Under the pieces are notes generated by a model. The model did not search any database, was not told the origin of the DNA, and saw nothing but the letters and a program-made list of their open reading frames with translations. DNA of 64,000 bases from positions 182,493,681-182,557,680 of the forward strand of contig CM030366.1 in assembly GCA_017893485.1 (NCBI GenBank). Direction: 5' to 3'. A program made the translations under genes and the position numbers. This document shows positions 4,910 through 62,980 of this stretch, in pieces (position 1 is the stretch's first letter; each line of letters starts with the position of its first letter). The DNA comes from Hemerocallis citrina. Its lineage: Eukaryota; Streptophyta; Magnoliopsida; Asparagales; Asphodelaceae.

Positions 4910-5419
4910 TGTTGTGCGGAATACAAACTAACCAACAATCAAACGAGAGAAACAGCGAGAAAAACAGAAAAACAAGCAACACAAGAACACAAGATTTAAT
5001 GTGGTTCGGCAAAACACATGCCTACATCCACGGGGCGGTTGGGGTTTCTTCTTGCTATAATCAACGATGGGCAAAACAAAGTTTACAAGAGATGACGGCT
5101 GCAAAATCCGAAAAGAGGTCTCTAATTTCGTCTCTCTTAATTACAAAACCCTAACGGGTCGTATTTATAGGGAAACTATTGGGCCTTTCGAAATGGGCCT
5201 ATTCTGGATCCAAAACCCGCCGACAGTCGACTGGTCGAATTACCAGTCGACTGGTACTTCCTTCGGGACAGTCGACTGCTGCTGCTGTATCTTTAGTCTT
5301 TGAAACTTCTCTCTGGACAGTCGCCTGATCCTCCAACCCAGTCGACTGATATACTGGAACTTTCATTTGCTGCAGATACTCCAAAACAATCTGAACCAGA
5401 ATCGAGCCATTATCCTACA
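4910..5419 (-). repeat. Copia LTR (3' LTR in element sense)
   Basis: The 510-bp repeat begins TGTTGTGCGG and ends CATTATCCTACA on the plus strand. It contains a TATA-like box on the minus strand (5162-5170, reads CTATAAATA) and four exact copies of the palindrome CAGTCGACTG (5224, 5244, 5269, 5339) in the U3 part. It lacks a 12-bp unit present in the other LTR. Confidence 0.95.
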
Positions 5420-5656
5420 ATCTCCACCTTGGCGAGATCTTCCAAGTATCCATCAATCTCCACCTTGGCGAAATCTTCCAAATAGCCCAAGCAATCTCCA
5501 AAAATACTCCAAACAAATGCTCATCACCAATTGTAACAAAAACAAACTCCACCTTAGTATGATATCACATACTAACCAAACCAATAGCAAAGCACTATCC
5601 CAACCGCCCATGCCAAATTATCAAACATGCAAAATATTAGCCAGGTTCATGCAATG
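5420..5656 (-). other. Copia 3' untranslated region with duplicated polypurine tract
   Basis: On the minus strand the sequence AAGGTGGAGAT lies directly before the 3' LTR and serves as the polypurine tract. The surrounding motif ATCTCCACCTTGGCGA (plus strand) is present twice, at 5420 and about 5457, and a shorter CTCCACCTTA lies at about 5548. Extra copies of this tract are common in plant copia elements and could give secondary priming sites. Confidence 0.7.
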
Positions 5657-8600: not shown

Positions 8601-9721
8601 AAATCTGGAACATACCATACATCTGAAAGCTCTCTAATAAGACCATCGTGCATTAGCAATTCAATCTTCCCGATTCCTACCTTCTTACAAGGTGCATCAT
8701 TCCCCATCAAAACTACACCACCATCCATATACTCCAAAGAAGTAAACCACTCCTTTTTCCAAGACATATGATAGGAGGCTGCTGTATCAAGAAACCATAC
8801 TTCTTGATAAAGTGAGGGACTAGAAGCAAGTGCAAAAGAAAAATCCTCGCCACTATCTAAATTATCAACAGTCACATTTGCAGTCGAATTTTCCTTATTT
8901 CGTAGCTTTGGACAATCCTTTTTCCAATGCCCCCTTTCATGACAGAAAGCACATTCATCTTTGGTCGGTATTTTTCTGTCCTTAGAAACTCCTCTCGATT
9001 TGGAACGAGATTTGTTTCCCTTTTTCCCAGATTTGGACTCAGATCTGGTCTCAGTCCTGCCCCTTACAATCAATACTTCAGAAGTTTCTCTATCAACCAT
9101 TTTATCCCTTCTCCTAGTTTCATTATTCAACAAAGCATTTGCAACATCTTCATATTTCACAGTATCCTTTCCATATATTAAAGTTGTTGCTAAATGATCA
9201 TAACTTTCGGGTAATGAATTCAACAGAATTAGGGCTTTATCTTCATCTTTAATTTGCTCATCCAAATTTAACAAATCAGCCAATAATTTATTAAATGATT
9301 CAACATGAGCATTCATAGACATACCTTCTGTATAGGTGAAGCGAAAAAGTCTCTTCTTTAAATACAGCCGATTCTCCAAACTTTTCCTCATGTATTTGTC
9401 TTCGAGTTTCTTCCACAACACCGCAGCAATGGTATCCCTCATCAAGTCGTACTTCTGAGCCTTCGCAATAAAGAGACGAATAGTCCCACACGCAACTCGA
9501 TTCAACTTCTTCCAATCTGCTTCGGACATATCCTTTGGTTTTTCTTTCTCCAAAGCAACATCTTGTTCTTGTTGAACAAGAACATCCAACACCTCACATT
9601 GCCACATCCCGAAATTATTTGTCCCATCAAATTTTTCAACTTCAAATTTTGCGTTGTGAATCGTTGTTCTGGACGAACTTGATCCCACAACATCCTTGGT
9701 TGCATCTGCATCACTCGCCAT
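5657..9721 (-). pseudogene. Copia gag-pol polyprotein, interrupted between integrase and RT
   Basis: The frame opens with ATG at 9721, 22 bases after the primer site. The first 809 codons hold gag, a zinc knuckle CAFCHERGHWKKDC (residues 257-270), protease WFLDTAASYHMS (Asp312), and integrase with H447/H452, C478/C481 and D508, D571, E607 (D,D35E). The second block (7201-5657, 514 codons, same frame) holds RT with [12 protein letters not shown] and YVDD (residues 202-205) and RNase H with DSDYAGD, TEAEYMA and ADMLTK. Between them, in the same frame, are a TAG at 7294-7292 and a TGA at 7270-7268. The neighbouring frame stays open across this gap, so small compensating insertions are likely. 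All catalytic residues are present; only the hinge is broken. Confidence 0.92.
7388..7540 (-). repeat. Internal duplication in the copia integrase-RT hinge
   Basis: CTGTTGGAGAACT followed by CTGCTG and CACCAGTCGACTGTCCCGAG occurs twice in this stretch. In the protein it gives two GQSTG motifs within a Gln/Ser-rich linker (near the C-terminal end of the first 809 codons). The same CAGTCGACTG palindrome is amplified in the LTRs. Confidence 0.7.
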
Positions 9722-9743
9722 CTCCCTCTAGGTCGAACCAACA

Positions 9744-9755
9744 GCTCTGATACCA
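9744..9755 (-). promoter_or_regulatory. Copia primer binding site (tRNA-iMet)
   Basis: Plus strand GCTCTGATACCA; the minus strand reads TGGTATCAGAGC, the exact complement of the 3' end of plant initiator methionine tRNA. It lies two bases inside the 5' LTR (element sense). Confidence 0.95.
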
Positions 9756-9757
9756 CT

Positions 9758-10279
9758 TGTTGTGCGGAATACAAACTAACCAACAATCAAATGAGAGAAA
9801 CAGCGAGAAAAACAGAAAAACAAGTAACACAAGAACACAAGATTTAATGTGGTTCGGCAAAACACATGCCTACATCCACGGGGCGGTTGGGGTTTCTTCT
9901 TGCTATAATCAACGATGGGCAAAACAAAGTTTACAAGAGATGACGGCTGCAAAATCCGAAAAGAGGTCTCTAATTTCGTCTCTCTTAATTACAAAACCCT
10001 AACGGGTCGTATTTATAGGGAAACTATTGGGCCTTTCGAAATGGGCCTATTCTGGATCCGAAACCCGCCGACAGTCGACTGGTCGAATTACCAGTCGACT
10101 GGTACTTCCTTCGGGACAGTCGACTGATCAGTCGACTGCTGCTGCTGTATCTTTAGTCTTTGAAACTTCTCTCTGGACAGTCGCCTGATCTTCCAACCCA
10201 GTCGACTGATATACTGGAACTTTCATTTGCTGCAGATACTCCAAAACAATCTGAACCAGAATCGAGCCATTATCCTACA
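9758..10279 (-). repeat. Copia LTR (5' LTR in element sense)
   Basis: The 522-bp LTR has the same ends as 4910-5419. The TATA-like box on the minus strand lies at 10010-10018, so transcription should start near 9980 and read leftward. It carries five exact CAGTCGACTG palindromes, the extra one within the 12-bp insertion ATCAGTCGACTG. Confidence 0.95.
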
Positions 10280-10651
10280 AGATCTTTTTACCATTTCCTT
10301 AATTCTAGAGGTATTCGATCGTCGACCGCGCATTTTATCTGGGACTCCTGTGCCCCTTTTAAGGTGAAAATCACCTCGTGGCTCGCGTTTAATAACAAAC
10401 TACTGACCGTTGAGGTTCTTAACAAAAGGAATTTGGCTTGGGGGTAGCTTTGCCTGTTGTGCAATCAGCAATCGGAAGACGGTAACCATCTCTTCATTCA
10501 GTACCCCGTCATCCTCCCTCTGTGGAAGATTTGCACTTTGGCATGGGATACTGGTTCGATTCCCCCCTTATTAGCCTCCTGTTGGTCTTGTACGCCCTCG
10601 AACGTGATGTTTCGAAGCGCGTGGATGTTATCGATTCATACAATCATTTGA
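10280..10651 (+). pseudogene. LINE ORF2 C-terminus, part 2 (zf-RVT-like region)
   Basis: If the copia element is removed the LINE frame runs straight on: FSVRS continues into YHFLNSRGIR, then HFIWDSCAPFKVKITSWLAFN. This is the zf-RVT region found at the end of plant LINE ORF2. An in-frame TAG lies at 10445-10447. The expected zinc ligands follow (CLLCNQQSEDGNHLFIQ) but the last cysteine is replaced by Tyr. It confirms that copia inserted into an existing LINE. Confidence 0.85.
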
Positions 10652-14021: not shown

Positions 14022-15728
14022 GGGTTTTTTTTTTTGAAATAAAAGGCAAGAGAGTTGCCCCAGATTCTCATAAATAAGTTCAATCCATTACATGAAATAC
14101 AATCGAAATGCATAAACTGAAACTACTCAAAAGTCTCACAAACAACTGCTAAATAAGATTCACAACATAATTACTACAAAAGCCAAAAATCTTCCTTACT
14201 CAACCAAGAGTAAGATGTTAACAGGTGATCCCTTCATTACTCAACCAAGAGTAAGATGTTAACAGGTGATCCCTTCAGTTATTGCCGAATTCATGCCTCA
14301 CATTAGTATTAGAGAATGTGCTTTCTTCCTCACCCCTAGTAAGGACAACCACGAAGACGTGAGAGAGAGAATTTTATACATCATTTGAACAAAATTAGAA
14401 GAATGATTTCTAAAGTAGACATCGTTCCTATCCAGCCAAATGATCTATAAAGAAGCAGCGACAATACAATCCTACTCCCTTCGACGTCCCAACACCAAAT
14501 CTCTAAACCTGACACGCCAAAGCCCCAAATATTTTTACTATGTACACACTCGAGAAAAAGGTGGCAAATAGTCTCAATCCCGCTCCCGCATCTCGGACAT
14601 GCGACGACGGTGATTAACCCTCTCTTAGAGAGGTTTTCTCTAGTTAAAATCGCATCCTTAGATACCAACCAAAGGAAAGCCCAGACTTTGTGAGGGGCAC
14701 ACGTATTCCCAATTACTCTATTCACACTACATCTAATTTCCCTATCACAGAGAACTGAGTAAATGGCTTTTACCGAAAACTTGCTGTTTGGATTACTGGG
14801 CAAACCCCTCTCATCCTGTTGGTTACTCAAAACAATAGAGTTATTTCCAAGCCAGGTATAGATTGGGAGAAGGCTGATATGGACATTATCATTACTCATA
14901 GGTAATAACCTAATGTGCCACGAGAATCGAGCCCAATAGTCTGCCACCAATGCCACTTTATTGAAGGCTCTCGCATAAATCTCGGGAAATAATGATGCCG
15001 ACGTATTGGGACCAGCCCACGCGTCGAGCTAAAATCTCGTGTTTTTCCCATTTCCCACCCTACTCGGGGAATGACAGTGGAAGATATCTCCCACCCTATC
15101 AATTCCTCTCCAAATTGGGAAAATACCTCTACGATGTTGTCCCCCCAATTTGAATCGTCTATGTCTTCTATATCTAAACAAGATGTAGCCCTGGGCAGGG
15201 GTATGGCGGGAATGAATTTTCCACCATCATTTGCATAAAAGAGCTTTGTTCATATGACCAAGATTTAAAACTCCCAAACCACCAAACTCTTTTTTCCGAC
15301 AAACTACGCTCCACCTGACTAGTGGAAGGCTCTTACAATCGTCTCGACTACCCTTCCATAAGAAATCTCTATGAATTCTATCAATCTCATTGATAACCCA
15401 AGCGGGGAATTCATAAATTGACATTCAATATATCGGGAGATTAAACAGAACAACGTTAATCAGAGTGATTCTGCCTCCAAGCGAAAGATGTTTCCTCTTC
15501 CATCTGGGAAGCCGTTTCCGAATTCTCTCTATAAGAATCATCCAATCATTCTGCTTGAGTTTACCGGGGTGCAAGGGGACTCCTAAGTACTTAATGAGAA
15601 ACTTTCCGACTTTACAATCCAGAATGCTAGCAAGAAAAATCGTAGCCACCTCATCACATCTACCTAGATCAATGAGGTAGCTCTTATCGTAATTGACTTT
15701 TAATCCACACCACGCCTCAAAGAAGACC
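14022..15728 (-). pseudogene. 5'-truncated LINE, minus strand
   Basis: Read on the minus strand, 15728 to 14022 encodes the end of a LINE ORF2: GLKVNYDKS, FLIKYLGVPLHPGK, WKRKHLSLGGRITLIN, then FGGLGVLNLGHMNKALL and a zf-RVT module CPRCGSGIETICHLFLEC (C-x2-C-x7-H-x4-C intact). It is broken into frames 15730-15425, 15424-15227 and 14956-14381. The 3' end is a plus-strand poly(T) at about 14026-14036. It belongs to a different LINE family from 3438-12131, judging by sequence and 3' end. Confidence 0.85.
14196..14278. repeat. 41-bp tandem duplication in the LINE 3' UTR
   Basis: The unit TTACTCAACCAAGAGTAAGA followed by TGTTAACAGGTGATCCCTTCA is present twice in tandem with no visible difference. 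Confidence 0.85.
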
Positions 15729-17555: not shown

Positions 17556-18489
17556 TATAATATATGTTGAAAAGGATTTGAAAAATATTTGGTAAATAAG
17601 TTAGCTGGTTTGGTAAATAAAAGAATTGAAATGTGAATGGTAGGTGGGGTCCACACGTGAAGGTAAACAACACAAGTCTGTGTGTGTTCTCTGATGGCCT
17701 AGGTGACGTGGCATTGTGTTGGGCCCACCTGCAAAAGTTGTTGCGGAAGAGTAGAAAGTAGAGGTAAGAATATAGTTCCACATCGGCAAATAATTTGAAT
17801 AAAATAATATATAAATAATATAATCTATGATCAAGACTCATCAATTTGGTTAAACCATTTTTTAAGAGGCAGTATGTGGTAGGCAATTGTAGTACATAAT
17901 ATTTAATTTATCTTCTAAATTGTATAAATTGTTGTTGTATAATCTATATAATAAATTACAAAGAAAGCTATCAAGTGGCTCTCATTCAATTTTCTTCAAA
18001 ATCAATGGCCAAGATCTAACCTCACAATACATATTTTCCCGTCCAAAATTTTAAACCCCACAAATTTAAAATCCACACACACACACTCTCTTTCTTTCCC
18101 AAAATACCCACCCGGTCTCTCTCTTTCTCACTCCGTCTCTCTCACTGACTCACTCTCTCCTTATCTCTTACCGCTCTCTCTATCTCCCCGCTCTCTCTCA
18201 CTGTCTCCCCGCTCTCTCTCACTCTCCCCGCTCTCTGTCACTGTCTCCCTCCCCCCACCTCCGGCGCCTTTTCAGCGCCCCCCCACCTCTAGTCGCCAAC
18301 CCCCTGGTCCTCCCTTCCGTTGTTTGCAATCAGCGACCAACCCCGACGCCATCCAAACACCGAACCCCTCACCGTCACAGACGCCTCTTCAGCGCCCCTC
18401 CAACTCCGGTGCCTTTTCAGCGCCAACCCCGACGCCATCCAACCACCGAACTCTTCACCGTCACCAACCACCGATTTCACCATCTCAGG
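17556..18489 (+). promoter_or_regulatory. Possible promoter and leader of a host gene disrupted by a Tat-like element
   Basis: After AT-rich DNA, 18060-18250 is a long pyrimidine tract rich in CTCTCT, the composition of plant 5' leaders. From 18250 the sequence turns GC-rich with a partly duplicated segment (CGACGCCATCCAA at about 18346 and 18431). It ends CACCATCTCAGG at the insertion point. On the far side of the element (32769) it continues TATACTAGG, so the pre-insertion sequence CAG/GTATAC looks like a splice donor. The following exon is not identified. Confidence 0.35.
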
Positions 18490-19083
18490 TATTGCCGCTA
18501 AATTTGGTGTGGGGGCAAACAGATAGTATTTGTGGATTCTTAGGAAAACTGAATAGCAAACCTGTATACCTGTTCCGTCGGAGTTTGACGCTGACTCCTG
18601 CCGTACACCTGCAAAAAGTGCGAGACACCGAGGTTGTTCCCGGTGACGCACCCTCCGACGCTCAAGTCAGTAATCAGGGAAGATTATGAAAGAGCGCAAA
18701 AACTGGCAAAAGATTGATTACCTCTCAATGGAGATGGATGGGGGGTATTTATAGGCGCCGCTGGGATCAGATTAGGAATGTAATCCCCCTGTGGTTAGAT
18801 AAGGAATGTAATCCCTAATCCCCAGTGAAGGGATAGATATGAATCAGGGCCGTTGATTAGGATTTAACCAGAAACCCTAATTCTATCCCTTCTGGACCGG
18901 GTTTGTTGCGGGTTGAAACCCGCACCCAGTTGAGGTGGATCCGTTTGCGGGTGGGTCTTCGGGGAAGATAACCAGTATCCGCTTCAGACCCGTTGGTAGG
19001 TGAAATTACCGTTTTACCCCTAGGCTTCAAGATTCGTGCCCAATTTGGGCGGTTCCGATTTAACCCGATTTTTAGCCATATCA
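18490..19083 (-). repeat. Element 1 LTR (3' LTR in element sense)
   Basis: The 594-bp LTR runs from TATTGCCGCTAAATTT to TTTTTAGCCATATCA on the plus strand. The purine-rich PPT on the minus strand (CTTTAGGAGTGGGGGGCTCC, plus strand 19084-19103) abuts its inner end. A TATA-like box (TATTTATAG on plus, TATAAATA on minus) lies in the middle. Confidence 0.95.
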
Positions 19084-19379
19084 GGAGCCCCCCACTCCTA
19101 AAGACTGAGTTTGATCAGCCTTTGGGGAGTAGTTTAACTGTTTTAATGGCTAGTGGAGTTGTATCGGAGTCCAAATGGAGGGTTTTGAACCTCGAAGGGG
19201 GTAGTGTGGTGATTTTTGAAGCTGTAAGCTGCTCTTGAGCTTCTTCGGACATCCGGCGATTTTTATCTATTTTTCCGGATTATTTGTTTAGTTTTGCGAT
19301 GCGTTAACCAGTCATTCGGGGTCTTATCAACACATTCTAGGTAATAATTGTTCATTCAGGGGCTCAAAAATATTCTCCT

Positions 19380-21190: not shown

Positions 21191-21382
21191 GCAGACTCAG
21201 TAGCTCGGCTGCTTAACCAGATTGTTCGGTAGGTCGGCTAGGCGAACCGGTGGCCGAGTTGTGGACTTGAGCGCTTTGTGGAGTTTTTGTTGTGAAACTG
21301 AAACTGCGACTTTCCGCTTTGGCGCTTTGGCTTCTTAGCGGGCTTTTAAGTTCCCAAGGAGGCCCAAACGTCGCAATGGGGT

Positions 21383-21607
21383 TATAAGTTCTTACTCCCC
21401 CACCCCCAAGCTCATTTCTCACTTTTCACTCCAAGCTTTCACTTTTACTCTCTGTGCTCTCTGCTAGCGGCAATTTTTGCTCCAAGGCAATTGCGTTAGC
21501 TGTCACGTGGGCCAGGCGATTTCCGGCGAGCTTATTCCGACCGTAAACGTCACTTCAAGCTCACGTCACTTCAAGGTCAGTCTACTTTCCTTAGCTTTTT
21601 TATAGAG
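21383..21607 (+). promoter_or_regulatory. Putative promoter and leader of the element 1 antisense gene
   Basis: TATAAG at 21383-21388 is followed by a CT-rich leader (CTCATTTCTCACTTTTCACT) and the ATG at 21608. The same arrangement, with a better TATA box, precedes the orthologous gene in element 2 at 60439. Confidence 0.45.
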
Positions 21608-23785
21608 ATGTCAAGGGTGAACTCGGGGAGTGAGGCCTCGTCCTCGGGCGATAGTGGTGCCGAGGAGAGGAGGCAGATGGAGATCCGAAGGAAGGGGAAG
21701 CAAGTAGCCGAGCCGTCTGTGGCCAAGGTGAGGAAGGAGAAGAAGAAGAGGAGGGTAGTGGCCCAATCTCCTGTGGTCGAGGTGATTGTGGAGAATCCAA
21801 GACAAGCCCCTGAGATGGGTCGATACCCTTGTGTACTGTCCAGGCACGCTGGGGTTAGGCAGTACGAGGGCAACCTCATGAAGAAGGCGATCCTCGGTCA
21901 GTCGGAAGTTTACGAAGAGAACAACCCAGTTTTGACTACCGAGGCGGACGAGATTGGGTCGGTGCTATCCGAGAGGGACCTGCTCCGGATCAGAAAAGGG
22001 TTCGCCATCCCTCCGGAGTACAAGCTAATTCTCCCCGGCCCTGCACCGACCCAATTCATGCTGAACACAATTCATGCTGAACGACTGCCTTGCACCGACC
22101 CAATTCATGCTGAACACATGGCGCCATGTGAACGCCTTCCTGCTGCAGTGCCGCAACGCCGAGGTCGAGCCGGATCTGATGGTCTTCCGAAGCATGTATC
22201 GGATAAACCGGATGCACAAGACCGAACATCGATACTACCTGGCGCCGAGGAAAGGCGTTCGGATTATAGAAAACTCGGACTCGATCAAAGGCTGGAAGGA
22301 GAAGTTCTTCATATTGAGGGAGCCATCGATGTTGCAAGTTCCGAGCCGATGGAAAGTAGAGGTGCCAAAGTTCGCGAGGGCCGACCCGGAACTGACTGCG
22401 GCCGAGGAGGAAATGGCGAGGAAGATCGTGGCCCTCCCGATGTTGAGTTGGAGGGAGATGACCGAGGAGGTGCTATACGGGTCAGGCCTTAGTCCGATCG
22501 ACCCGAGTACGCTCCTGACATCTTTTTTTTTTTAAAGTCTTTAGCTCGTTTCACTAACTTTCAATTTGCTTGATGTCCGACGCAGAGGCGCCGAAGATGG
22601 ATTTTTTGGCCATGATGAACGAGAGGGGTAAGGTCACCGATGGGAGGAAGAGGAAGAGGCCGAGCACAACTGCTTCGTCAGTCCGGCCCCCTAAGGTTGC
22701 TTCGACCATTACTCCGCCTCCCCTGGTTGCTGAGGTCCCCTCGTCAACAGTGGTGGTTGTCGAAGAGCCCTCGGCTCCTGTCGCTTCTACCCCGGTCGGT
22801 GAGGCCTTCGACGTCTCTGCGGCGTTGTCGCTTGAGGCTCCGCCACTGACTGCTCAGGCCGAGGTAATCTTGATCGAGCAGCACAAGCAGCTGTTCGTTC
22901 CCAACTGGCGGGTCAAAAATCATGATGGGTTCCTCGGGAACTCGCAGATATCGATGCAGGTCATCAAACACCTGGCAACCCCGAAAGATCGAGCCGCGCT
23001 GAAGGCGGGGACGGTCAGGGACGACACCTATGAGGTTGCTCGGTCGCTCGTATCGGTAAGTTTCTCTTGAGAATTTCTTTTATGTCTGTCATTCGGCCCT
23101 TATCTTGTGCTCACCATTGCTTTGTTTTGGCAGGCCACTTGTCACTTCAACCATCTCCTTGAAGTGTTCGCCGAACAGGAGAAGGAGTTGAAGGCCGCCA
23201 GTGATAAAGACAGGGCGGACAAGATGAAGGCGGTTCGGCAGCTCGAAGCAGTGCAGAGGCGAGCCGAGGGCTTAGAGGTCCAGGTTGCCGATCTTGTGGC
23301 TGACCTGGAGCGAGTAAAGGGGCGGCTCACTGAGGAGTCTGCCAAAGCCGCCAAGGCTGCCGAGGAGCTGGCGACGACAGCCAAGGCTCTGGCCGAGGTG
23401 AAGGCGGAGAAGGAGGCCTTGGCAACGAAGATCAAGGCCGAGGTCGAGGCCGAGGCGAAGAAGCACATGGCCTCGAACATGGAGAAGTCCTACCAGAGGG
23501 CGCTTGACCACATTCAGGACCTGCGTCCCCGGCTTCGAGCGGGTCGGCTACAGGCTGTGGCCCGGGTCCGCATCAGACGGCGAGGAGGGGGAAGGAGAAG
23601 AGGAGGAAGGTGACGAGGGAGAGGGCGACGGAGACGAGGAGGTGGTCGCCGATGTAGTGGTGACAAACCCCCAGGCCAGGGCGAGAAATGAGGGGCCGTC
23701 CGGTGAAGCGCCTGTGGTCGAGCCGATGACGCAGGCCCCTGATCTTCTCGTCGTCTTTTTTTTTGTTTTCCTTTCAAAAATATAA
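21608..23785 (+). pseudogene. Element 1 antisense gene 1 (Transposase_28-like), spliced, mutated
   Basis: This lies on the strand opposite gag-pol. Exon 1 (21608-22506) has a Ser/Lys-rich N-terminus, then FAIPPEYKLILPGP and, after a disruption, VNAFLLQCRNAEVEP, YRINRMHKTEHRYYL and SIKGWKEKFF. These resemble the plant family annotated as putative gypsy type transposon (Pfam Transposase_28). At about 22037-22110 part of the domain is deleted and a short segment duplicated, shifting the frame. Intron 1 is 22507-22585 and intron 2 is 23056-23133; both keep phase with element 2. Exon 3 from 23134 is an Ala/Glu/Lys coiled coil that shifts frame near 23520 before an acidic tail ending at 23785. Function unknown. 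Confidence 0.7.
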
Positions 23786-23903
23786 CGCCTTTTTGTGGAC
23801 TGGCCACCGCTTCTTCTCTTTATGAATGAAAATTTTATTTCAAATTTGTCCAAGTGTTTGGGTCGGTGTATAGTCTCCCAATTGTGACGTTCTTGTATTT
23901 CAG

Positions 23904-24617
23904 ATCCTCGATCATGCCCCCAATACCGTAGCGGCTCGACGTCGTGCCGAGCTGTTTAAGCAATCTCGCGAGGCTCGACTCGAGGGTGAGATCGAGCTGA
24001 TTCGAAGAATGTCGTTCAACGTAGAGAAGAAGTACAGTGAGCTTCTGGCCGAGGTTCATCACCTACGGATAGTCGAGGAGGAGTTCTTGATGAAGGAGGA
24101 GGAGCTAGCTTCGGTGCGGGCCGAGCGAGACGAGCTCGCGAGGAAGGTCGAACAGCTGCAGAGGGTCACGGTTGACAAGAGCATCGAGGTGACTAACTTA
24201 CGTCGTATTATATCCGACAGCGCTGAGTACCCCGGTTCGGCAAAACTCCCTCGATTCAAGATGGTTAAGGACGACACTCTGAAGGATAGGATCGTTGAGC
24301 TCGAGGAGGAGGTGGCTCGACTGAAGCCTCAGCCTGTGAGGGCTAATGTCCGCAGCATTTCTCGCACTCGCGAGGAGAGAGAACGGGGGATCACCTTTTA
24401 CGAGCTAGCGACTCGTGGCCAAGTTATTGGTCGGACAGCAGCCGACGCACAAAGCGGAGTAGCCGTTAGCTCGAGTGGAACCTCGGTCGGAGCCACCGTT
24501 AGGATTAGTGGCGAGGGGGCTTCGCAGTTCGTCGGCCTAGAGACTAGCTCGGAGATAAAAAGATGGAAACCCCAATTGTCTCTTAATCGGAACGTCCCTG
24601 TCCCGAGGAGGCACTGA
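23904..24617 (+). CDS. Element 1 antisense gene 2, coiled-coil protein
   Basis: The frame is open from a splice-acceptor-like TTGTATTTCAG (ends 23903) to the stop at 24615-24617, 237 codons; the first ATG is at 24009. The N-terminal half is a heptad-rich coiled coil (LLAEVHHL to LARKVEQLQ, then VDKSIEVTNLRR). The C-terminal half has a conserved TREERERGITFYELATR motif, a Ser/Gly stretch and a basic tail. It matches 62981-63892 in element 2 along most of its length, which argues for selection or recent common origin. AATAAA at 24730-24735 could end the transcript. I do not recognise a named family. Confidence 0.6.
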   Translation: MLDHAPNTVAARRRAELFKQSREARLEGEIELIRRMSFNVEKKYSELLAEVHHLRIVEEEFLMKEEELASVRAERDELARKVEQLQRVTVDKSIEVTNLRRIISDSAEYPGSAKLPRFKMVKDDTLKDRIVELEEEVARLKPQPVRANVRSISRTREERERGITFYELATRGQVIGRTAADAQSGVAVSSSGTSVGATVRISGEGASQFVGLETSSEIKRWKPQLSLNRNVPVPRRH

Positions 24618-25150
24618 ACGAGTTGCATCGTGCCTTTTACTTCTCCTTGTTGTAATGACATTGCTTGTAAATTTGTCAAGTCGTTTTTTCGCTGTAACTC
24701 TTTGCCTTGTAAATTTATCACTTTGTTTCAATAAAATTGATGTTGCTTTGCTCTTGTTGTGCCGTAGTTGCCCTACTCGAACCATAAGGACCCCTAGTTA
24801 TCTTCTTCGAGTGTTTTAGCTGCGGAACTTTAGTTTTTTGCTCGAAGCATACCGAGGCGACTGTGCGCTTCCGAGGTGCGATAGCTCGGACATCAAATTT
24901 AGCCTACGTGGCAACATCTAGACGGTTGATCATGATCGTGGTACGTATCACGAGGTGAGAGACACGAGTTCCAAGGAAACACTATCTTGTCGTTTTGTGG
25001 ACACGTGGCACGATCTAATCCGCTGATCAAGTCCTAGCACGCATTTTGAGATGATCTAACGATGAAATTTGTTCGGCGGAATTTTTCTCCGTATGTGGGG
25101 GTCGGTCCCTCGTCCGCTCGGCTCGGGTTATATGGGTTAGCGCAATCGAG
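24618..25150. other. 3' flank of the antisense genes and a lone array B relative
   Basis: AATAAA at 24730 is the likely poly(A) signal of antisense gene 2. From about 24900 the sequence resembles array B (CACTATCTTGTCGTTTTGTG, ACACGTGGCACGATCTAATC, then GGTCGGTCCCTCGTCCGCTC). No other gene is seen. Confidence 0.55.
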
Positions 25151-26374: not shown

Positions 26375-27823
26375 TTAGAGAGGCATTGGTGCTCTTTCTT
26401 GGTATTTTAAGAGATGGTCGGCATTCCAAGTCCTGGGGATCTCCTTGCCTTCGAGATCTTCTAGTCTGTATGTGCCGGGACGGACTACTTTGGCAATCTT
26501 GTAAGGTCCCTCCCAATTTGGGGCTAATTTGCTCTTCTGACCTGGGAATGAGATGGCCAACTTTTTGAGGACCAGGTCCCCTTCTTTGAGGTCCGTAGGG
26601 CAGACTCTCTTGTTGTATGCCAACTCGATCCTTCTTCGGTAGCTTTGTTGACGAAGGGCAGCTCTTGTTCGGATCTCATCTATCAGGTTTAGACTTGCCC
26701 GGAGCTCTCTGGCGTTTTGCTCTTCTTCATAAGCTATTAGACGAGGAGAGGGTATTTCGACTTCTAGGGGGATGATGGCCTCGGACCCATAGGTGAGATT
26801 AAATGGGCTCTCTCCTGTGGGGGTCCGTTTTGTGGTGCGGTAGTTCCACAGCACGTTGGGAAGCTGATCGACCCATAAGCCTTTGAAACACTTATCTAAC
26901 CTCTTCTTAATGCCGGAGAGGATCTGTCGGTTAGCATTTTCGGCTTGGCCATTTGACTGGGGATGAGAAACGGAGGAGAACCGGTGTTGGATGGCAAGGT
27001 CTTCGCATAGAGCTCGGAAGGCAGTCCCGGTGAACTGTGTTCCGTTGTCTGTTATCAGGACCTTAGGGACGCCGAATCGGCAGATCACGCTCTTCCAAAA
27101 GAACTGAATAACCTTGTTCTCGGTGATCACGCTCTTCCATTTCGAGAAGTAGTCGATCGCCACGACTAAGAATTTGAACTGTCTGGGAGCTTGTGGAAAT
27201 GGCCCTAGTAAATCCATCCCCCACATTGCAAAGGGGATCGGACTTGATAGGGAAGTGAGTGGAGCTTGTAGGAGGCGTCGGATGTCGGAGTACTTCTGAC
27301 AGGAGCTGCATTGCCGAACGTGCCGTTCGGCGTCTCGTAGGAGAGTGGGCCAGAAATATCCGTAATTCAACACTTTGCGCGCTAGAGCTCTGGACCCCGA
27401 ATGTGCCCCGCCGATGCCCTCATGAAGTACTTGCAGGGTGTAGTCGGCTTGCCCAGGGGAGAGGCATCTCAGGTAAGGCCGGCCGTCTACCTGTGTGAAG
27501 GAGCGTTTATATAGGATACCTCTGATTAGTGTGTAACGCTCAGCTCGGGTTCTCACTCTTCGAGCTTCCTTGAGATCCTCGAGGAGGAGTCCATCCCTTA
27601 AGAATTCGACGATGGGTTTCATCCAGTTGTCTTCGAGCAGGACAGGCAGCGACTCCATAGAGTCGGGAGTTTCGTCCTCTATACTCGGCTTCAGCAGGAC
27701 CTCTATCAAGACGGTCTGCTCGAGACCTTGAAGGGAGGAAGAGGCTAGTTTGGAGAGGGCATCAGCTTGAGCATTTTCTTTCCGGGGTATGCATTGGATG
27801 AAGGCTTCTTCAAACAGTGCCAT
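26375..27823 (-). pseudogene. Element 1 integrase
   Basis: There are 482 open codons. The N-terminus is the tail of RNase H/connection (ADALSKLASS). The zinc-binding HHCC is H134, H141, C172, C175. The catalytic triad is D204 (WGMDLLGPF), D259 (TDNGTQF) and E295 (NGQAE), with the canonical 35-residue spacing. The C-terminal GPF-like segment NWEGPYKI and TWNADHLL follow. The catalytic core lacks several residues after YFSKW, where a GGAAGAGCGTGATC motif is repeated on either side, suggesting a small deletion. The frame is separated from RNase H by a frameshift at about 27845, so it cannot be made as a normal polyprotein. Confidence 0.9.
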
Positions 27824-27840
27824 GAGGCTCCTGACCTTTG

Positions 27841-28392
27841 CTAATATTTAACCATCCTGTCATCACGCGCTTCATATTCGCCGAGGACCTGATTCACGAC
27901 GAGTTGAGAGTCGCTAAAGATCCTGAGGCATCGCGCTCCTGCGTTGCGAGCCATTCCAAGGCCAGCTATGAGTGCCTCGTATTCTGCTTCGTTGTTAGAG
28001 GCCTTGAAATTGATACGGAGGGAGTATTGGAGGATGAAATCATCTGGGCCTGCCAGAATGACCCCTGCCCCGCTTCCCTCATTGCAGGAGGATCCGTCCA
28101 CATAAACCGACCAGACGGGTGGTCCCTTCACTGTTTGGCTGGACTCGGGGATGGTACTTTCAACTATGAATTCCGCTAAGGCCTGAGCCTTGATCGCGGT
28201 CTGAGGCTGATAAGTTATATCGTGCTGGCTCAGCTCGATAGACCACTTCATAAGGCGACCCGAGGTCTCTGGCTTGTGGAGGACCTGTTTCAGCGGTTGG
28301 TCAGTAAGAACGACCACCGAATGGGACTGAAAGTACGGGTGAAGCTTTCTCGCGGCCATCACCAGGGCATAAGCCATCTTTTCTATCTTCGG
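27841..28392 (-). pseudogene. Element 1 RNase H domain
   Basis: Minus-strand frame 28377-27841 contains the RT-connection region (LTDQPLKQVLHKPE) and an RNase H domain with WSVYVDGSS, NNEAEYEALIAGL and IFSDSQLVVNQV. A TAA at 28395-28393 separates it from RT in the same frame. The frame ends in an early TAG at 27843-27841, explained by loss of one base at about 27845 relative to the integrase frame. Confidence 0.9.
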
Positions 28393-29502
28393 TTAGCGGA
28401 TTTCGGCATCCCGAAGTACTTTGCTCACATAGTAAATGGGCTTTTGAGCCCGGTCTTCTTCCCTTACTAAAACGGCACTGAGAGTCTGTTCGGAGGCTGC
28501 CAGGTAGAGGTAGAGGGGTTCTCCAGGAATTGGTTTGCTGAGGAGAGGAGGATTGACGAGGTAAGCCTTGAGCTGGTCGAAGGACTCCTGTTGCTGTTGT
28601 CCCCATTCAAAACCTTTAGCCCCCCTAAGGGCCTTGAAGAAGGGGAGGCATTTCTCTCCGGACTTCGAGAGAAAATGCCCTATGGCGGCCAAGCGGCCTG
28701 TTAACCTCTGAACTTCCTTAACATTCTTGGAAGGGGCCATGTCTAATATGGCCTTGATTTTCTCAGGATTTGCTTCAATTCCTCGTTGGCTAACCATGAA
28801 GCCGAGGAATTTTCCTGACGAGACACCGAACGCACATTTGTTCGGATTGAGTCTCATGTTGTACTTTCTCAGAACATCAAATGCCTCTTGGAGGTCGGTT
28901 ACATGATCGGGACCTCGGATGCTTTTTACAAGCATGTCATCAACATATACTTCCATATTGCGGCCAATTTGAGCTTGGAAAACCTTGTTGACGAGGCGTT
29001 GGTATGTGGCTCCTGCATTCTTCAAACCGAAGGGCATGACCCTGTAGCAATAGAGGCCCTGGTCGGTCACGAATGAGGTCTTCGGGATATCCGGGGGGAA
29101 CATCCGAATCTGGTTGTAGCCTGAGAAGGCGTCCATAAAACTGAGGAGCTCATGTCCCGAGGTGGCGTCAATCAGAGTGTTAATACTTGGAAGAGGAAAG
29201 GGATCCTTGGGGCAAGCCTTGTTGAGATCGGTAAAATCGATACAAATTCTCCAGGTCCCATTGGACTTCTTCACCATTACTACATTCGACAGCTACTCAG
29301 GATAGTTCACCTCTTGTATGAACCAGGCCTTCAAGAGCTTGTCCACCTCCTCTTTTATAGCTAGCTGGCGCTCGGGGGCGAACTTGCGCCTCTTCTGTTG
29401 AACCGGTTTGGACCCGGGAATAACGCTGAGGTGGTGGACCAAGAGCTCTTCGAAAATTCCGGGCATGTCTGCAGTTGACCAAGCAAAGAGGTCTCAGTTC
29501 CT
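28393..29502 (-). pseudogene. Element 1 reverse transcriptase
   Basis: The main open part is 29277-28393. Motifs are WRICIDFTDLNKACPKD, FMDAFSGYNQI (Asp49), YRVMPFGLKNAGATYQ and YVDDMLV (Asp113/Asp114), then the thumb and connection to RNase H. Upstream, 29502-29278 is in the same frame ([20 protein letters not shown] region) but contains stops, including one just before the main open part. The catalytic aspartates are intact. Codons and motifs are typical Ty3/gypsy RT. Confidence 0.92.
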
Positions 29503-30245
29503 TTAGATGCACTGTACAATGTCCGAGCATAGGGCGGACGGGAGGGTCTTGCTAACAAAGAACTTTCGAGTTGGATCCTGCTCAGAGAAGAGCACTTCCT
29601 CCAATTCGTCCACCGGCTCGGACGTCGGTCGGGCAGCATCTTGGGGGATTTCTAGAGTTTCTAAGGAGAGGACTGGACCGAGGGTAGAGGTCATGTAGCA
29701 CTTGTGGGCTGTTTCCTGATTGCCTTTCACCTCCCCTACTCCGGCCCGAGTTGGAAACTTCATTTTGAGGTGATAGGCAGAGGGGACGGCTTCGAGGGCA
29801 GCTAGGCCGGGCCGACCCAATATGACGTTGTAGGCTGCAGGGACATCTACGACCATGAAGTCCATCGGCTCCGTTCGGGTGGTAGGAGTTTGGCCAGCGG
29901 TTACATCGAGGGTGATCACCCCTTCGATAGTCACTGGTACTCCCGTGAACCCATGGAGTGTGTAGCCGGTGGGCTTGAGTCTATCTCGGGAGAGTTTGAG
30001 GCCTTTGAAAGCGGCGAGGAAGAGGATGTTAACGGAGCTGCCATGTCCACTAGGATCCTCTCCACTTTGAAGTTTGCCATGTGGAGACTAATAACGAGTG
30101 CGTCACAATGGGGCATTCGGACACCCTCGAGGTCTTCATCTGAGAATGTGACGGGCACTCCGAGGCCCTTAGGAGGAGGGTTGGCGCGAACCGAGTTGAC
30201 TTCTCTTATAAATGCCTTTCGAGAGGAGTTTGAGGAGCCCCCCAT
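29503..30245 (-). pseudogene. Element 1 protease region, frameshifted at the active site
   Basis: The frame 30245-29931 leads to FKVERILVD, where the retropepsin motif should follow, but a one-base change near 30043 throws the frame off (MAAPLTSS). The next frame continues with GSSVNILFLAAFKGLKLS and then 29934-29503 with FMVVDVPAAYNVILGRPGL. The protease fold is recognisable on both sides of the shift, but no continuous active site can be translated. Confidence 0.85.
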
Positions 30246-30350
30246 TGGGCCCCCATGAATGAGGTGCAGGACACGCTCCTCCTCAAAGTCGGGCGTTTCA
30301 TCGCGTTCCGGACGCTTATTAGCCCCCCGAGGCGGGGGAGGAAGTTCGGC

Positions 30351-32114
30351 TCAGTCCTTTCTTACAAACCTGGTCAGCTGCCCCCTCTGGATGAGGGCTT
30401 CTATCTCATTCTTCAGGGCCCGACAATCATTGGTGTCGTGGCCGTGGTCCCGATGATAACGGCACCACTTCTCTTTATCCCTTTTCTTGGCAGGAGTGTT
30501 CATCCTCGAAGCAGGAGGTATGATCCCTTCCTTCTCAACTTCCATTAGAATGGTAGAGACATTAGTGGTGAGGGGAGTAAACTTCTCGAATCTGGGGGGA
30601 GGTCAGCGCTGGCCGGCATTATCCTTCTGGAGCTTCTTGGCTCCTTCCTCTTCTGTTCCCTTTCTCTTAAACCCAGAGGAAGACCCCTCCAAGTTGGGGC
30701 GGTGCTCGGCTTCTTCGGCCCGAATGTACTTTTCACTTCGGAGGAGGAGGTCAGAGAAGTTCTGTGGGGGCTTCTTGGCAAGGGAGGAGCGGAGGTTGGA
30801 ATTGAGGACATTGGATTGAAATGCTGCTGCAGCGACCGACTGGTCGAGGGATGCTATGGACCTGGCTTCAGCTGTGAACCTCTTCATATAGTCTCTCAAC
30901 TTCTCACCCTTCTTCTGGTGGAGGTACAGTAGCGAGATGCTGGTCTTCTCAGTTCTACGGCTACTTACAAAATGGGTGACGAAGAGGGTCTCGAATTGCT
31001 CGAAGGAGAATATTGAGGATGGGGCGAGGCGAGAGTACCATTCTCGAGTCGAATCTTTGAGAGTTGCGGGTAAGGTTTTACAGAGCAGAGCATCGGAAGC
31101 TTGATGGATGAGCATTAGGGTCTTGAAGCTCTCGATGTGATCGACGGGGTCAGTTTCCCCAGAGTAGGTCTCAAATTGAGGAGGCTTGAAGCCGATTGGT
31201 ACAGGTGCATCCATTATGGTTCGGGAAAAAGGAGGTCTGCTAGGACGAAGGGTCCTTCCTCTAAGTTCTTCTTCTCAGTCTAACTGACCCAAGCGCCTCT
31301 CCATCTCATGGAGACGGCGGTACACAACGTCGTCCCTTCGACGGTAATCAGCCGAGCCTCTAGACTCGTCTTCGTACGAGAGAGAGCAGGGGCTACGACG
31401 ACGGTAGCTCCTGGAGCGGCGAGGACTTTGCACATGCCGGGAGTTGTTGGGAGCTGGAGGAGGAGATGGGGACCGTCGGCGAGGACTTCGGACCGGAGGA
31501 GGAGAGGGGATCTTGGGTGCATTGGTGTTAGGACGGAGATTGAGAGCTTGTAGGACGGTCGCTTGGAACTGCTGGAACTCGGCACGGGTGATGGGTGCCT
31601 CATCATTCCTAGGCTGTTGCCGACCTGTGGGGGAGTGTGGCCTTCTTCTGTAATGCTTGGGGGACTCTCTTCGCCCCCTTCGGGTAAGGGACCTTCTGTA
31701 TTCTCGGCGGTGAAGAGACCGCTCATCCGGACGGTGTTGGCGGGAGGTTCCCTCTCGGGCCCGCTTTTCATCCAGATGGCGGCGAAGATCCTCATCCTTC
31801 TGCCGATTGAGGACGGTGTGGTGGTGATCGGAAGCTCGGGGATGGTGAGAGGCCATAGAGTCCGAAAAGGCATTATGGATGGAGACGTGGTCCGGATGGA
31901 GAGGCTGTTTTTGCAGATTGGGACCTTTGGTAGGCTGTTGGTTCTGAGGAGCAGGCGGGCCCTGTTGGATTGGGACCTCCGCCTGAGGAAGAAGTTGTCC
32001 CTGCTGTTGAGCGGGTTGAGGGGGAACTTCTTGTTGCTGATCGGGGTTGGGTCCTTTGTTGGACCCTCTGGATCTAACTTTCCTAGGAGGCATGGCTGGG
32101 GAAGATCTGTCCAA
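30351..32114 (-). pseudogene. Element 1 gag, with in-frame stops
   Basis: All parts share one frame. 32114-31278 encodes a Pro/Gln-rich then Arg/Ser-rich N-terminus. 31274-30606 holds the retrotransposon gag domain (FETYSGETDPVDHIESF, STREWYSRL, LRDYMKRF). 30602-30354 holds the nucleocapsid-like CRYHRDHGHDTNDC and ALIQRGQLTRFV. TGA codons interrupt at 31277-31275, 30605-30603 and 30353-30351, each consistent with single-base change. The start ATG at 32114 lies 31 bases inside the primer site. Confidence 0.88.
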
Positions 32115-32165: not shown

Positions 32166-32763
32166 TGTTGGCGCTAAATTTTGTGTGGGGGCAAACAGAT
32201 AGTATTTGTGGATTCTTAGGAAAACTGAATAGCAAACCTGTATACCTGTTCCGTCGGAGTTTGACGCTGACTCCTGCTGTACACCTGCAAAAAGTGCGAG
32301 ACACCGGGGTTGTTCCCGGCGACGCACCCTCCGACGCTCAAGTCAGTAATCAGGGAAGATTATGAAAGAGCGCAAAAACTGGCAAAAGATTGATTACCTG
32401 TCAATGGAGATGGATGGGGGGTATTTATAGGAGCCGCTGGGATCAGATTAGGAATGTAATCCCCCTGTGGTTAGATAAGGAATGTAATCCCTAATCCCCA
32501 GTGAAGGAATAGATATGAATCAGGGCCGTTGATTAGGATTTAACCAGAAACCCTAATTTTATCCCTTCTGGACCGGGTTTGCTGCGGGTTGAAACCCGCA
32601 CCCAGTTGAGGTGGATCTGTTTGCGGGTAGGTGGGTGTTCGGGGAAGATAACCAGTACCCGCTTCAGACCCGTTGGTAGGTGAAATTACCGTTTTACCCC
32701 TAGGCTTCAAGATTCGTGCCCAATTTGGGCGGTTCCAATTTAACCCGATTTTTAGCCATATCA
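32166..32763 (-). repeat. Element 1 LTR (5' LTR in element sense)
   Basis: The 598-bp LTR starts TGTTGGCGCTAAATTTTG and ends TTTTTAGCCATATCA on plus. TATTTATAG at 32422-32430 gives a minus-strand TATA box, so element transcription should start near 32395 and run leftward into gag. Confidence 0.95.
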
Positions 32764-32768
32764 TCAGG

Positions 32769-35096
32769 TATACTAGGTTTGGGGTTTACAAATTTCCTCT
32801 TTTCTTTCAAATTGTCAAATTGGTCTTTTTTTCCACCGATTTCACCATCTCAGGTCTTTTCAAATTGTCAAATTTCCTCCTTTCAATTTGCTGAAAAATC
32901 ATTCAGTTCTAGAATGAGTGAATGAGTGAATGAATTAGTCTCTGATATAATGGATTAGTCTCTATTATAATGGATTAGCCTCTGTTATGAGTTCTTGAGT
33001 GAGTGAATCAAATTGGTCTTGCTGAAAATTCGTTAAGTTACAATTAAGCAATTAAGTAATGAATGAGTGAATGAATCATTGAGTTCTAGAATGAGTGAAT
33101 GAGTGAATGAATTATCTCTGTTATGTTCAATGAATGAGTGAATGAATCACTGAGTTCTAGAAATTTTCTTTTCGGTGGATTGAACAAGGCATCTATGCAT
33201 ATTAATTCTAGCAGCGGTGGCCAAATAATAAAACTTAATTTTGAAGTTTGATCTGTTTTTTCTTAGGCTGATGTATAAACTGAAATCTCATTTTTCCAAT
33301 AGTCATAAATTGACTTTTTGGTTTGATCATAGACTTTTTGCGAACATGATACAACCATACCTTTTTGGGTTGAAGTTCAGAAAATATTACAATGCACGCT
33401 TGGGAGTCATGTCAGGCTCTGCTTTGTAAGCAAGTAGGTGGTTTGTTTGGTTTCAATGAGACGATTAGCTGGAAACTCATATCATTATGTAAGAGGTTTA
33501 AGTTTAACACAACTATTGTCAATCAAGACACAAGACACAGTACATAAGAGGCATGGAGAAATCCTGTTTTAAGTTGTGGTTGGATGTTCTCTAATTGACC
33601 TCACTGATGCTATTTGAAGTAATGTTACTGGCCAAGTAATGCTACATGAATTTTCATATGAAACTGTGATATTGATATGATCAGTTAAAACTTTTAACAG
33701 CTTTTAGAAACTACTTGCATTTACCCTTCCATATTAACATTTTTGTTAAAAATTGTGCTCTAATGCTAAAACAAAATTTTGTGCTTGGGGGCTGCGTCGA
33801 CTTGCTCATTTTATGTATGCTATTTTTGTACACTCTAAAATTTCTGCATGAATGTAGAGGTCTGAGCTGTATTATTGCCAATCCCCTTTCCCTACGTGAA
33901 AAGATGTTAGATAGCTCACCGGTCTATCTCCTTTCCCTTTATGATATTGACACTTTTATATGCTTCGTGATTTACACACTTTTATATGAAAATAATTAAC
34001 TTCCAGATGTAGTTAGTAGTTAGTAGTTACACACAAATTAAAAATGAAAAATAAGTTTATACATTGGTACTTTCATAGGTTTTTACCGTTTTGTAAAGCC
34101 TAATTGTCATATTTATGGATTTGTGTAAATCTTTTATCCTCAAGCTTACTTGCACTATTGACAACTGTGCAACATTCAGAACCTTAATATGCAAATTTTG
34201 ATTTTATTTGCAAACAAATTATAAATGAAAATAGCTCTATGGAACACCCCCTACAAATGTTTTGGTCATCATATTTTTTTTTTAAAAAATTTAAGGGTGT
34301 GTGTCAGATAGCTCACCCGCACTATTGACAACTGTGTGTCTCACGCCGATCTTTTTCTTTTGATCATACACCCGAAGCCCCTTCACTCTCTCTTTCTCTC
34401 ACTCACTCTCAAATCCAAGAGAACCATCACAAATTTTGAGGCAAAAGTTTATAAGGTAATTTATGTTTAATTTCATCAATTTTAGTATCAATTTTGTTAG
34501 GGTTTCTGCTTTTTATCATCAATTAGTCCAAGAAGCTTCATCCTTAATTTATGGTTGAAAACCCTAAAATCTCACATACATTTGGCGTTTTGGGTTAAAA
34601 AGAGGAATTATTGTAGGGTTTAGGTTAATTGAGAAGGTAATTTATATAGGGAAAGATTAGGGGGACAGTTTTGTTTGTTTTTTGTAGGTTTAGTAACTTC
34701 CAAATATGTCTCCTAATACACCTATTACATGTCAATTTGAATAAGCCAACTTTTGTAAGAGGAGCGACAATACGATTACATATGATGTAGCTCCAAAAAC
34801 AATGCCCTACAAGATAGAGCAAAGATTAGAGATAGACCTAAACGGATTTGGAACAATGCAGTTAAGAAGCACATAATGGGTGTTAATTTATCAGAGGAGC
34901 AAACCTTAATATTAGATATTTTGGGTGAGTAATGGCAAATAACACTCATTTTTAGGCCGCCCACTAAAACATAAAAAATTATCTATCACTTCGTTCGGCA
35001 AGACAAAGGAAGTATCAAAGAACATCATCTACGTAACGTTAACTAAGATTAACTTATGCACACGAACCAAATTTGTCAAAAATATACCATATTTAA
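32769..35096. other. AT-rich DNA with GAATGAGT repeats, no gene seen
   Basis: 32833-32854 repeats the 22 bp CCACCGATTTCACCATCTCAGG that also precedes the element at 18468-18489. From about 32914 to 33165 the words GAATGAGTGAATGA and TTGAGTTCTAGAAT recur as a degenerate microsatellite. A CT-rich leader-like stretch lies at 34380-34420. At 34828-34930 a short minus-free frame (RPKRIWNNAVKKHIMGVNLS) faintly resembles the end of an RTE-type LINE, but this is weak. Confidence 0.45.
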
Positions 35097-57950: not shown

Positions 57951-58092
57951 TTACAAACCCAGAATAACACCGTTACAGTTCGAGTAAGATCTGAACTCCC
58001 TTAAGAACACCGATAAAATCTCGTACGCCATTAGAACAACAAAACTACTCCTCAAAGACTGTAGAACTCGGTCTCCAGGAGTGGGGGGCTCG

Positions 58093-58655
58093 TGATATGG
58101 CTAAAAATGGGATTATATCGGGACCATTCGAATCGGACACGAATCTTAAAACTCAGGGGATAAAACGGTAATTTCACCTACAAACGGGTCTGAAATGGGA
58201 ACTGAGTCTTTCTTCAAAGCCCAATAACCCATAAAATGGATCTGTCTTACTGGGTACGGGTCCCAACCCGTCACAAACCAGTTCAGAAGGATAAAGAAGA
58301 ATTCAGATTCATAATTATCCCTAAGAAGTGATCTTAACCGCTTCTATCCATTCACACCGGGAAGTAGAGATATGTTCTTATCTCGAAACGGATCCCTAAG
58401 GCGACTATAAAAATCCCTCTCCCCCCGCTATAAGAAGGTAATCAATCTTTTTCCAATTAAAGCTCTTTCTTAATCATTCTGATTATTGACAAGAGCGTCG
58501 GAGGGTGCGTCGCCGGGATCCATCTTGGTGTTTCGCACTTTTTGCAGGTCAACGACAGCGGCAAAAAATCAGTCAATACATTGGTGAAGGTCAACAGGCC
58601 AACAGGTTTGCTTTATTGTTTTCTCCAAGAATCCACAAATTCATCTGTTTGCTCC
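58093..58655 (+). repeat. Element 3 3' LTR, truncated at its end by an insertion
   Basis: It starts TGATATGGCTAAAAATGGG (the reverse complement of the LTR ends of elements 1 and 2), has a TATA box ACTATAAAAAT at about 58403 and CTTTTTGCAGGTCAACGAC, and stops at CATCTGTTTGCTCC. The expected final bases of about 20-25 nt (ending GGCAACA in relatives) are absent. Confidence 0.85.
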
Positions 58656-62977: not shown

Positions 62978-62980
62978 CTT

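Follow-up and report, generated by a model that had tools for sequence, protein, structure and literature searches.

The window analysed here is a 64,000-nt stretch of the Hemerocallis citrina genome (CM030366.1); coordinates are positions within it, and + and - denote its plus and minus strands. It contains two retrotransposons, elements 1 and 2, which by their sequence are classified as Retand-type members of the Tat clade of Ty3/gypsy elements. In both, two coding units (termed gene 1 and gene 2) lie in the same order on the plus strand between the 3′ long terminal repeat (LTR) and the integrase, antisense to gag-pol (Table 1). The whole is probably best explained as the antisense accessory module of Retand-type elements in a spliced, two-product form. 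A preliminary description of the region had placed two plus-strand units with GT-AG introns at this position of a minus-strand element, and coordinates, strand and order agree with it. It had also placed the same units, with the same intron positions and phases, in element 2, where the gene 1 introns do match. Its observation is confirmed, and its interpretation is partly supported.

Gene 1 has two introns, which occupy the same positions in elements 1 and 2 and have the same phases (phase 1 and phase 0, respectively), and the gene 1 exons of the two elements have only 33%–51% residue identity. The family of element 2 was sampled as 21 copies, i.e. the window copy and 20 copies fetched from the same genome. 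The 20 were taken from 130 places scored among 36057 first-look candidates and were chosen by similarity of the gene 2 protein; gene 1 played no part in the choice. Counts of copies and variants given below refer to this sample. Every predicted GT and AG is intact in all 21 copies. Intron lengths vary through all three phases (83–90 nt and 84–99 nt), thus reading through them would break the frame between copies. The GC content is 0.61–0.67 in the gene 1 exons and 0.37–0.41 in the introns, and there are 8 insertion/deletion (indel) events in 1947 nt of exon sequence versus 21 in 172 nt of intron sequence (Fisher p = 9e-18). Shared variants past the GTACG of the intron 1 donor, read in the exon 1 frame, are 10 non-synonymous and 1 synonymous. 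Selection evidently ends at this donor. An exon 1 that reads through to a stop near 61575 was considered and dropped on the same count. On these data the introns of gene 1 are very probably real.

Several points weigh against this reading. Singletons in intron 1, in the exon 1 frame, are 6 non-synonymous and 9 synonymous (pN/pS, the ratio of non-synonymous to synonymous polymorphism, is 0.19). Multiples of three make up 3 of the 8 exon indels and 5 of the 21 intron indels; because the exon figure is so low, frame-keeping is visible in indel density and not in indel lengths. The intron 1 donor, GTACGC, scores weakly (rank 42 of 140 GT sites in element 1 and 29 of 141 in element 2), and in element 1 two AG sites that were not predicted rank above the intron 1 acceptor, at 2 (21605) and 4 (22544) of 207. 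All such scores come from an approximate plant matrix. In element 2 the three predicted acceptors are the top three of 184 AG sites; in element 1 they rank 10, 1 and 3 of 207. The GTACG of the intron 1 donor is invariant across the 21 copies, and this donor is taken to be a weak and possibly regulated site.

Selection on the coding sequences was assessed within the family and between the two elements. Shared variants of gene 1 comprise 39 non-synonymous and 96 synonymous changes (pN/pS = 0.13), singletons 157 and 130 (pN/pS = 0.39), and the annotated frame has the lowest pN/pS of the six frames. Point variants create four stop codons, all of them singletons, as expected if selection acts while the lineage is active and copies decay once inserted. 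The gene is open to its own stop in 14 copies and not open in the other 7. For gene 2 the shared pN/pS is 0.75 ahead of the acceptor and 0.04 past it; the latter value is biased low because the copies were chosen by similarity of the gene 2 protein, and this counts against its use as support.

That bias does not affect the comparison of element 1 with element 2, in which synonymous sites are close to saturation (the pol synonymous distance is ~1.1–1.4). The comparison gives dN/dS (the corresponding ratio for divergence) of 0.20–0.46 for the pieces of gene 1, 0.13 for gene 2, and 0.02–0.06 for the pieces of pol. The dN values are 0.44–0.72 for the antisense proteins and 0.03–0.07 for pol. The antisense proteins are thus under purifying selection, yet their non-synonymous change is at least six times faster than that of pol. 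A recombinational swap of the cassette is possible but was dropped as an explanation: faster protein evolution suffices to explain residue identities of 33%–51% in the antisense exons versus 87%–95% in pol, synonymous divergence being near saturation in both. The preliminary description had proposed dN/dS as a check, and a value near 1 was not found. The coding module is, from these patterns, almost certainly under selection. The proposal of a functional module and not decay is upheld for the module (gene 1 pN/pS 0.13; dN/dS 0.13–0.46), and it does not hold for gene 1 of element 1, which is broken.

Gene 1 of element 2 encodes 648 amino acids (aa) from its three exons. Residues 140–203 match the Transposase_28 domain (TRP28, PF04195; E = 2.2e-13, 50.6 bits, cut-off 26.2). 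An antisense TRP28 open reading frame (ORF) between pol and the 3′ LTR is a criterion of Retand elements, and by this match element 2 has one. A K/R-K-R-K-R core is present in 20 of the 21 family copies and reads RKRKR in element 1; this basic cluster resembles a nuclear localization signal (NLS). Exon 3 is coiled-coil-like by a crude heptad count and is followed by an acidic tail. The coiled coil had been described as a feature of the second protein; gene 1 appears to share it.

In element 1, gene 1 has lost ~40 residues and changed frame near 22045–22090, with a further frame change near 23530. Half of the TRP28 domain is left, at 17.2 bits, under the cut-off of 26.2. A short duplication, CCGACCCAATTCATGCTGAACA, occurs in exon 1 at 22040–22110, the site of the ~40-residue loss from the TRP28 region. 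The structure model of TRP28 (exon 1) has a predicted local distance difference test (pLDDT) score of 36.5, too poor for use, which counts against the reading. Exon 1 has no sequence match among solved structures at E ≤ 1. The gene 1 protein has no match among 7995 scored candidates from a protein database of 5.8 billion sequences, a null that may be due to the word-based sensitivity of the search and would then say little.

Gene 2 is a single exon behind the third conserved acceptor; in element 2 it encodes 303 aa, counted from the ATG. The acceptor (62976–62977) and the ATG (62981, 3 nt past it) are kept in 21 of 21 copies and the frame is open in 19 of 21, in a sample chosen by gene 2 similarity. 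Among the 130 gene 2 places of the genome search, 14 have a stop codon. A coding first part of gene 2 within the 150 nt ahead of the acceptor was tried and rejected (shared pN/pS 0.75–0.80).

The structure model of the gene 2 protein of element 2, made from an alignment of two sequences, has predicted helices at 18–74 and 85–171, with pLDDT mostly 85–97 per 10-residue block, and a low-confidence tail that is basic at its end. The matches listed for it against solved structures are all generic coiled coils or helical proteins, none at E ≤ 0.001. A match to bZIP_1 is sub-threshold (12.2 bits, cut-off 27.6). The search of the protein database yielded no match among 7401 candidates, which may likewise be due to word-based sensitivity and say little. 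A control with the integrase gave 719 matches among 7994 scored, and those named by organism in a list of 120 are plants; thus the database covers plant proteins. Viral contigs gave no match for three queries. The proposal that the second product is a separate coiled-coil protein therefore stands in part: a second coding exon is conserved and long helices are predicted, and this exon may be read by either of two splice routes or from a promoter of its own.

The highest-scoring 5′ splice site of the region is just ahead of the gene 1 ATG in each element (21576 and 60575). Its score is 4.22 in element 1, where the next is 4.12 (the exon 2 donor), and 6.35 in element 2, where the next is also 4.12. 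From this leader site to the ATG (60572–60588) 0 of 17 positions are variable versus 27 of 102 in 60470–60571. Among AG sites the gene 2 acceptor ranks third in each element (of 207 in element 1 and 184 in element 2). Because the leader donor precedes the gene 1 ATG in both elements and the gene 2 acceptor of element 2 precedes an ATG, one promoter with alternative splicing is suggested. A TATA promoter of its own inside the element would give an antisense pre-mRNA. Without use of the leader 5′ splice site, this RNA would be spliced as exons 1, 2 and 3 and yield gene 1, with a 3′ end near a conserved block of the spacer between the genes. Splicing from the leader site to the third acceptor would instead skip gene 1 and leave gene 2 to be read from the ATG behind the acceptor. 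That one antisense promoter serves both genes by alternative splicing from a shared leader is proposed tentatively, and three points speak against it. The lead of the leader donor in element 1 is small (4.22 versus 4.12). Element 1 has no in-frame ATG near the gene 2 acceptor (the first is at 24009), a poor fit to the leader route there. A join of exon 2 to gene 2 would likewise keep the phase in both elements.

The spacer block itself (62768–62801) has 2 of 34 positions variable, versus 85 of 263 across the whole spacer (62708–62970). A nearly invariant GCGG...CCGC around TGGCCA is seen in this block (GTGG...CCGC in its counterpart in element 1, 23797–23812). Its RNA could form a small hairpin, and the block may belong to the 3′ end of gene 1.

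The in-phase join leads to another reading, in which gene 2 serves gene 1 as an alternative last exon: the exon 2 donor, GTAAGT, would join the gene 2 acceptor to give a TRP28 protein that ends in a different coiled coil, and there would be a single gene with two C-termini. The end of exon 2 and the gene 2 exon are both in phase 0 in each element, the exon 2 donor ranks second among 5′ sites in both, and element 1 has an open frame from the gene 2 acceptor onward with no ATG close by. A single phase match, however, arises by chance about one time in three, and the ATG kept 3 nt past the acceptor in 21 of 21 copies of element 2 is not needed by a fusion exon. The strongest donor, ahead of the gene 1 ATG, would also be left without a partner. 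This reading is considered rather unlikely. Somewhat less likely again is a fully separate gene 2 with its own promoter in the spacer and an intron in its 5′ untranslated region. Gene 1 apparently has its own 3′ end (the conserved block and AATGAAA-like signals in the spacer), and the spacer of element 2 has a fair donor, GAG|GTTTTT at 62853 (rank 3 of 141). However, no TATA-like box common to the spacers of both elements was found when they were read by eye, and the best spacer donors of element 1, at 23895 and 23854, score 0.22 and -0.14. These two are too near the acceptor for a plant intron, which also counts against a separate gene 2.

Two further readings deny the module its coding function, and both are given very little probability. 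The antisense transcript could act as RNA, e.g. as double-stranded RNA with the genomic RNA, its ORFs being incidental; such a role was raised for these elements by Vicient and Casacuberta 2020 (PMC7264820). Frame-specific selection (gene 1 pN/pS 0.13) and the low indel density of the exons need a protein, and largely refute it. Alternatively, the cassette could be a captured host gene or other transposon that is now decaying. Gene 1 of element 1 is broken, and no module was detected beside a third LTR next to element 2. Against this, the module is at the same place in two elements with a pol synonymous distance of ~1.1–1.4, and 14 of the 21 copies in one family retain an open gene 1. This refutes decay of the whole module; an ancient origin by capture is possible.

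To return to the spliced, two-product module, its gene 1 product may be a nuclear, DNA-binding, self-associating regulator and its gene 2 product a coiled-coil partner. The two together could tune the element's own transcription or a nuclear step, like retroviral antisense or accessory proteins. The case for a nuclear regulator is evenly balanced; it is suggested by the predicted DNA binding of TRP28, the NLS-like motif and the coiled coils. More speculative than the shared promoter is a retrovirus-like antisense splicing programme, in which one internal promoter and a strong leader donor would allow a choice between the TRP28 protein and its coiled-coil partner, with the introns shielded by their strand. 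That antisense introns survive each round of reverse transcription follows from their strand and established splicing rules, because the sense genomic RNA has no usable splice sites there.

Table 1. Positions of the antisense modules of elements 1 and 2, and of the LTRs and gag-pol of element 1, in the window.
Feature	Position	Strand	Basis or remark
Element 1, TATA-like box of antisense unit	21382-21388	+	read by eye
Element 1, leader 5′ splice site AAG|GTCAGT	21576-21577	+	rank 1 of 140 GT sites
Element 1, gene 1 exon 1 (frame broken, TRP28 domain partly lost)	21608-22506	+	ORFs
Element 1, gene 1 intron 1 (79 nt, GT-AG)	22507-22585	+	comparison of elements
Element 1, gene 1 exon 2 (RKRKR motif)	22586-23055	+	51% identical to element 2
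Element 1, gene 1 intron 2 (78 nt, GTAAGT...GGCAG)	23056-23133	+	donor rank 2 of 140 GT, acceptor rank 1 of 207 AG
Element 1, gene 1 exon 3 (coiled-coil-like, acidic tail; frame change near 23530)	23134-23785	+	ORFs
Element 1, conserved spacer block GGACTGGCCACCGCTT	23797-23812	+	identical in both elements
Element 1, gene 2 exon	23904-24617	+	237 codons open from acceptor; first in-frame ATG 24009
Element 1, AATAAA behind gene 2	24730-24735	+	read from sequence
Element 2, TATA-like box TTCTATAAATCC	60436-60447	+	20 of 21 copies identical throughout the 12 positions; last base missing in the other
Element 2, leader 5′ splice site AAG|GTAATT	60575-60576	+	rank 1 of 141 GT sites
Element 2, gene 1 exon 1 (Transposase_28 domain)	60589-61495	+	PF04195 match
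Element 2, gene 1 intron 1 (85 nt)	61496-61580	+	family copies
Element 2, gene 1 exon 2 (NLS-like APRKRKRVAS)	61581-62029	+	family copies
Element 2, gene 1 intron 2 (87 nt)	62030-62116	+	family copies, splice scores
Element 2, gene 1 exon 3 (coiled-coil-like, acidic tail, stop)	62117-62707	+	heptad count
Element 2, conserved spacer block TTGTAATGCCTAATAGCGGACTGGCCACCGCTTT	62768-62801	+	possible 3′-end region of gene 1
Element 2, gene 2 exon	62978-63892	+	ATG 62981, 303 aa; acceptor 62976-62977
Element 1, 3′ LTR	18493-19083	-	TG...CA ends; alignment with 5′ LTR
Element 1, 5′ LTR	32169-32763	-	TG...CA ends; alignment with 3′ LTR
Element 1, gag-pol ORFs: integrase, RNase H and second RNase H, reverse transcriptase, protease-region ORF, gag	26378-31274	-	Pfam

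The LTR pair of element 1 has 578 of 596 aligned bases identical, and an 8-bp repeat, TCAGGTAT, borders the element on both outer sides (18485–18492 and 32764–32771). A flanking target repeat is usually 5 bp. A 26-bp piece of the element 1 target recurs at 32833–32858 (25 of 26 identical). The sequence TTGGCGCCGTCTGTGGG adjoins the 5′ LTR and is a candidate primer binding site. The gag-pol region of element 1 has Pfam matches to rve, Integrase_H2C2, RVT_1, RT_RNaseH, RVT_3 and Retrotrans_gag, and the protease-region ORF (29506–30087) has no Pfam match. Within 27844–28392, RT_RNaseH is followed by RVT_3/RNase_H, ahead of the integrase. A second (archaeal-type) RNase H between RNase H and integrase is a Retand criterion that is common to Ogre, according to a 2019 survey (PMC6317226), and by these matches element 1 has it. 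Tandem repeats are also present in element 1, a 113-bp array at 25.0–26.3 kb and larger repeats at 19.5–21.2 kb.

Element 2 starts at 58.66 kb and extends beyond the end of the window. Its pol pieces were taken from locus L029, which has a tandem array of ~101 bp. The reverse transcriptase there has a frame change, thus this copy of element 2 is not intact. The LTR and neighbouring internal stretch (18492–19222 and 58658–59418) are 82% identical between elements 1 and 2, unlike the pol synonymous sites, which differ at ~60%. The LTRs look exchanged or unusually constrained.

The third LTR, on the plus strand at 58027–58655, is ~70% like that of element 1 and lies head to head against the element 2 LTR. 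Beside it, at 52.5–58.7 kb, there is a tandem array, and gene 1, gene 2 and pol were not detected there (best tblastn E value 0.36). This is apparently a relative without the antisense module, or a truncated one. Elsewhere in the window there is a copia-type element at 4910–10280, with RVT_2, Retrotran_gag_2 and integrase domains and LTR-like repeats at 4910–5420 and 9758–10280 (97%). Other fragments of reverse-transcriptase elements are at 14381–14953 (zf-RVT) and 3440–4093 (RVT_1).

The antisense TRP28 gene is an already known hallmark of Retand elements; its splicing and partner gene are poorly described. The main text of Vicient 2025 (PMC11963269) reports antisense coding regions in all PRAREs and TRP28 in 97% of clusters. 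It gives antisense TRP28 in all but 2 of 63 Retand clusters, with DNA binding predicted, and this does not support the preliminary description as it stands, in which the antisense ORF is an extra of some elements. Of the 104 antisense ORFs that the paper counts across the 63 clusters, 72 have known domains; TRP28 is present in 57, and Smc and similar matches in others. The 2019 survey (PMC6317226), with another sample, has a lower figure, Transposase_28 in 23% of Retand elements.

The place (pol to 3′ LTR), strand relation, domain and long tandem-array region of the module are those of the Retand antisense TRP28 ORF in that main text (PMC11963269); unlike the ORFs described there, the gene here has three exons and two introns, and a second conserved exon behind them. 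The word "intron" is absent from the main text of that paper, figures and supplements aside. A description of introns in an antisense TRP28 gene, or of a second gene, was not found among the papers listed by the literature searches, which covered neither figures nor supplements and included few subscription papers. In one survey (PMC11963269), almost every recently active Retand cluster has TRP28 genes. Surveys based on ORFs are unable to connect exons. With exon borders defined exactly for a multi-copy family, what were vague antisense ORFs become two proteins that can be expressed, with junctions to be sought in RNA reads, and the module suggests how a retroelement may keep introns through RNA-based replication.

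HBZ of HTLV-1 is an antisense, spliced, nuclear coiled-coil (bZIP) regulator from the 3′ part of a retroelement. The likeness is one of way of working and no homology is claimed; the HBZ promoter is in the 3′ LTR, and here it would be inside the element. SMC-like matches are common for coiled coils. PvRetro13 has an antisense ORF2 with an SMC domain, likewise between pol and the 3′ LTR (PMC7264820; compared by description). Grande gene23 of maize is likewise an antisense accessory gene in the 3′ internal region, with a promoter upstream and a nuclear protein, and it is set apart by its description as a single gene, unlike the two units here (PMC7264820). In the same paper Vicient and Casacuberta call for a search of antisense and spliced transcripts (PMC7264820). 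The Ogre intron between gag-pro and pol (cited in PMC6317226) is also a functional intron in a Tat-clade element; it is in the sense coding region and is removed from only a subset of transcripts, whereas the introns described here are antisense.

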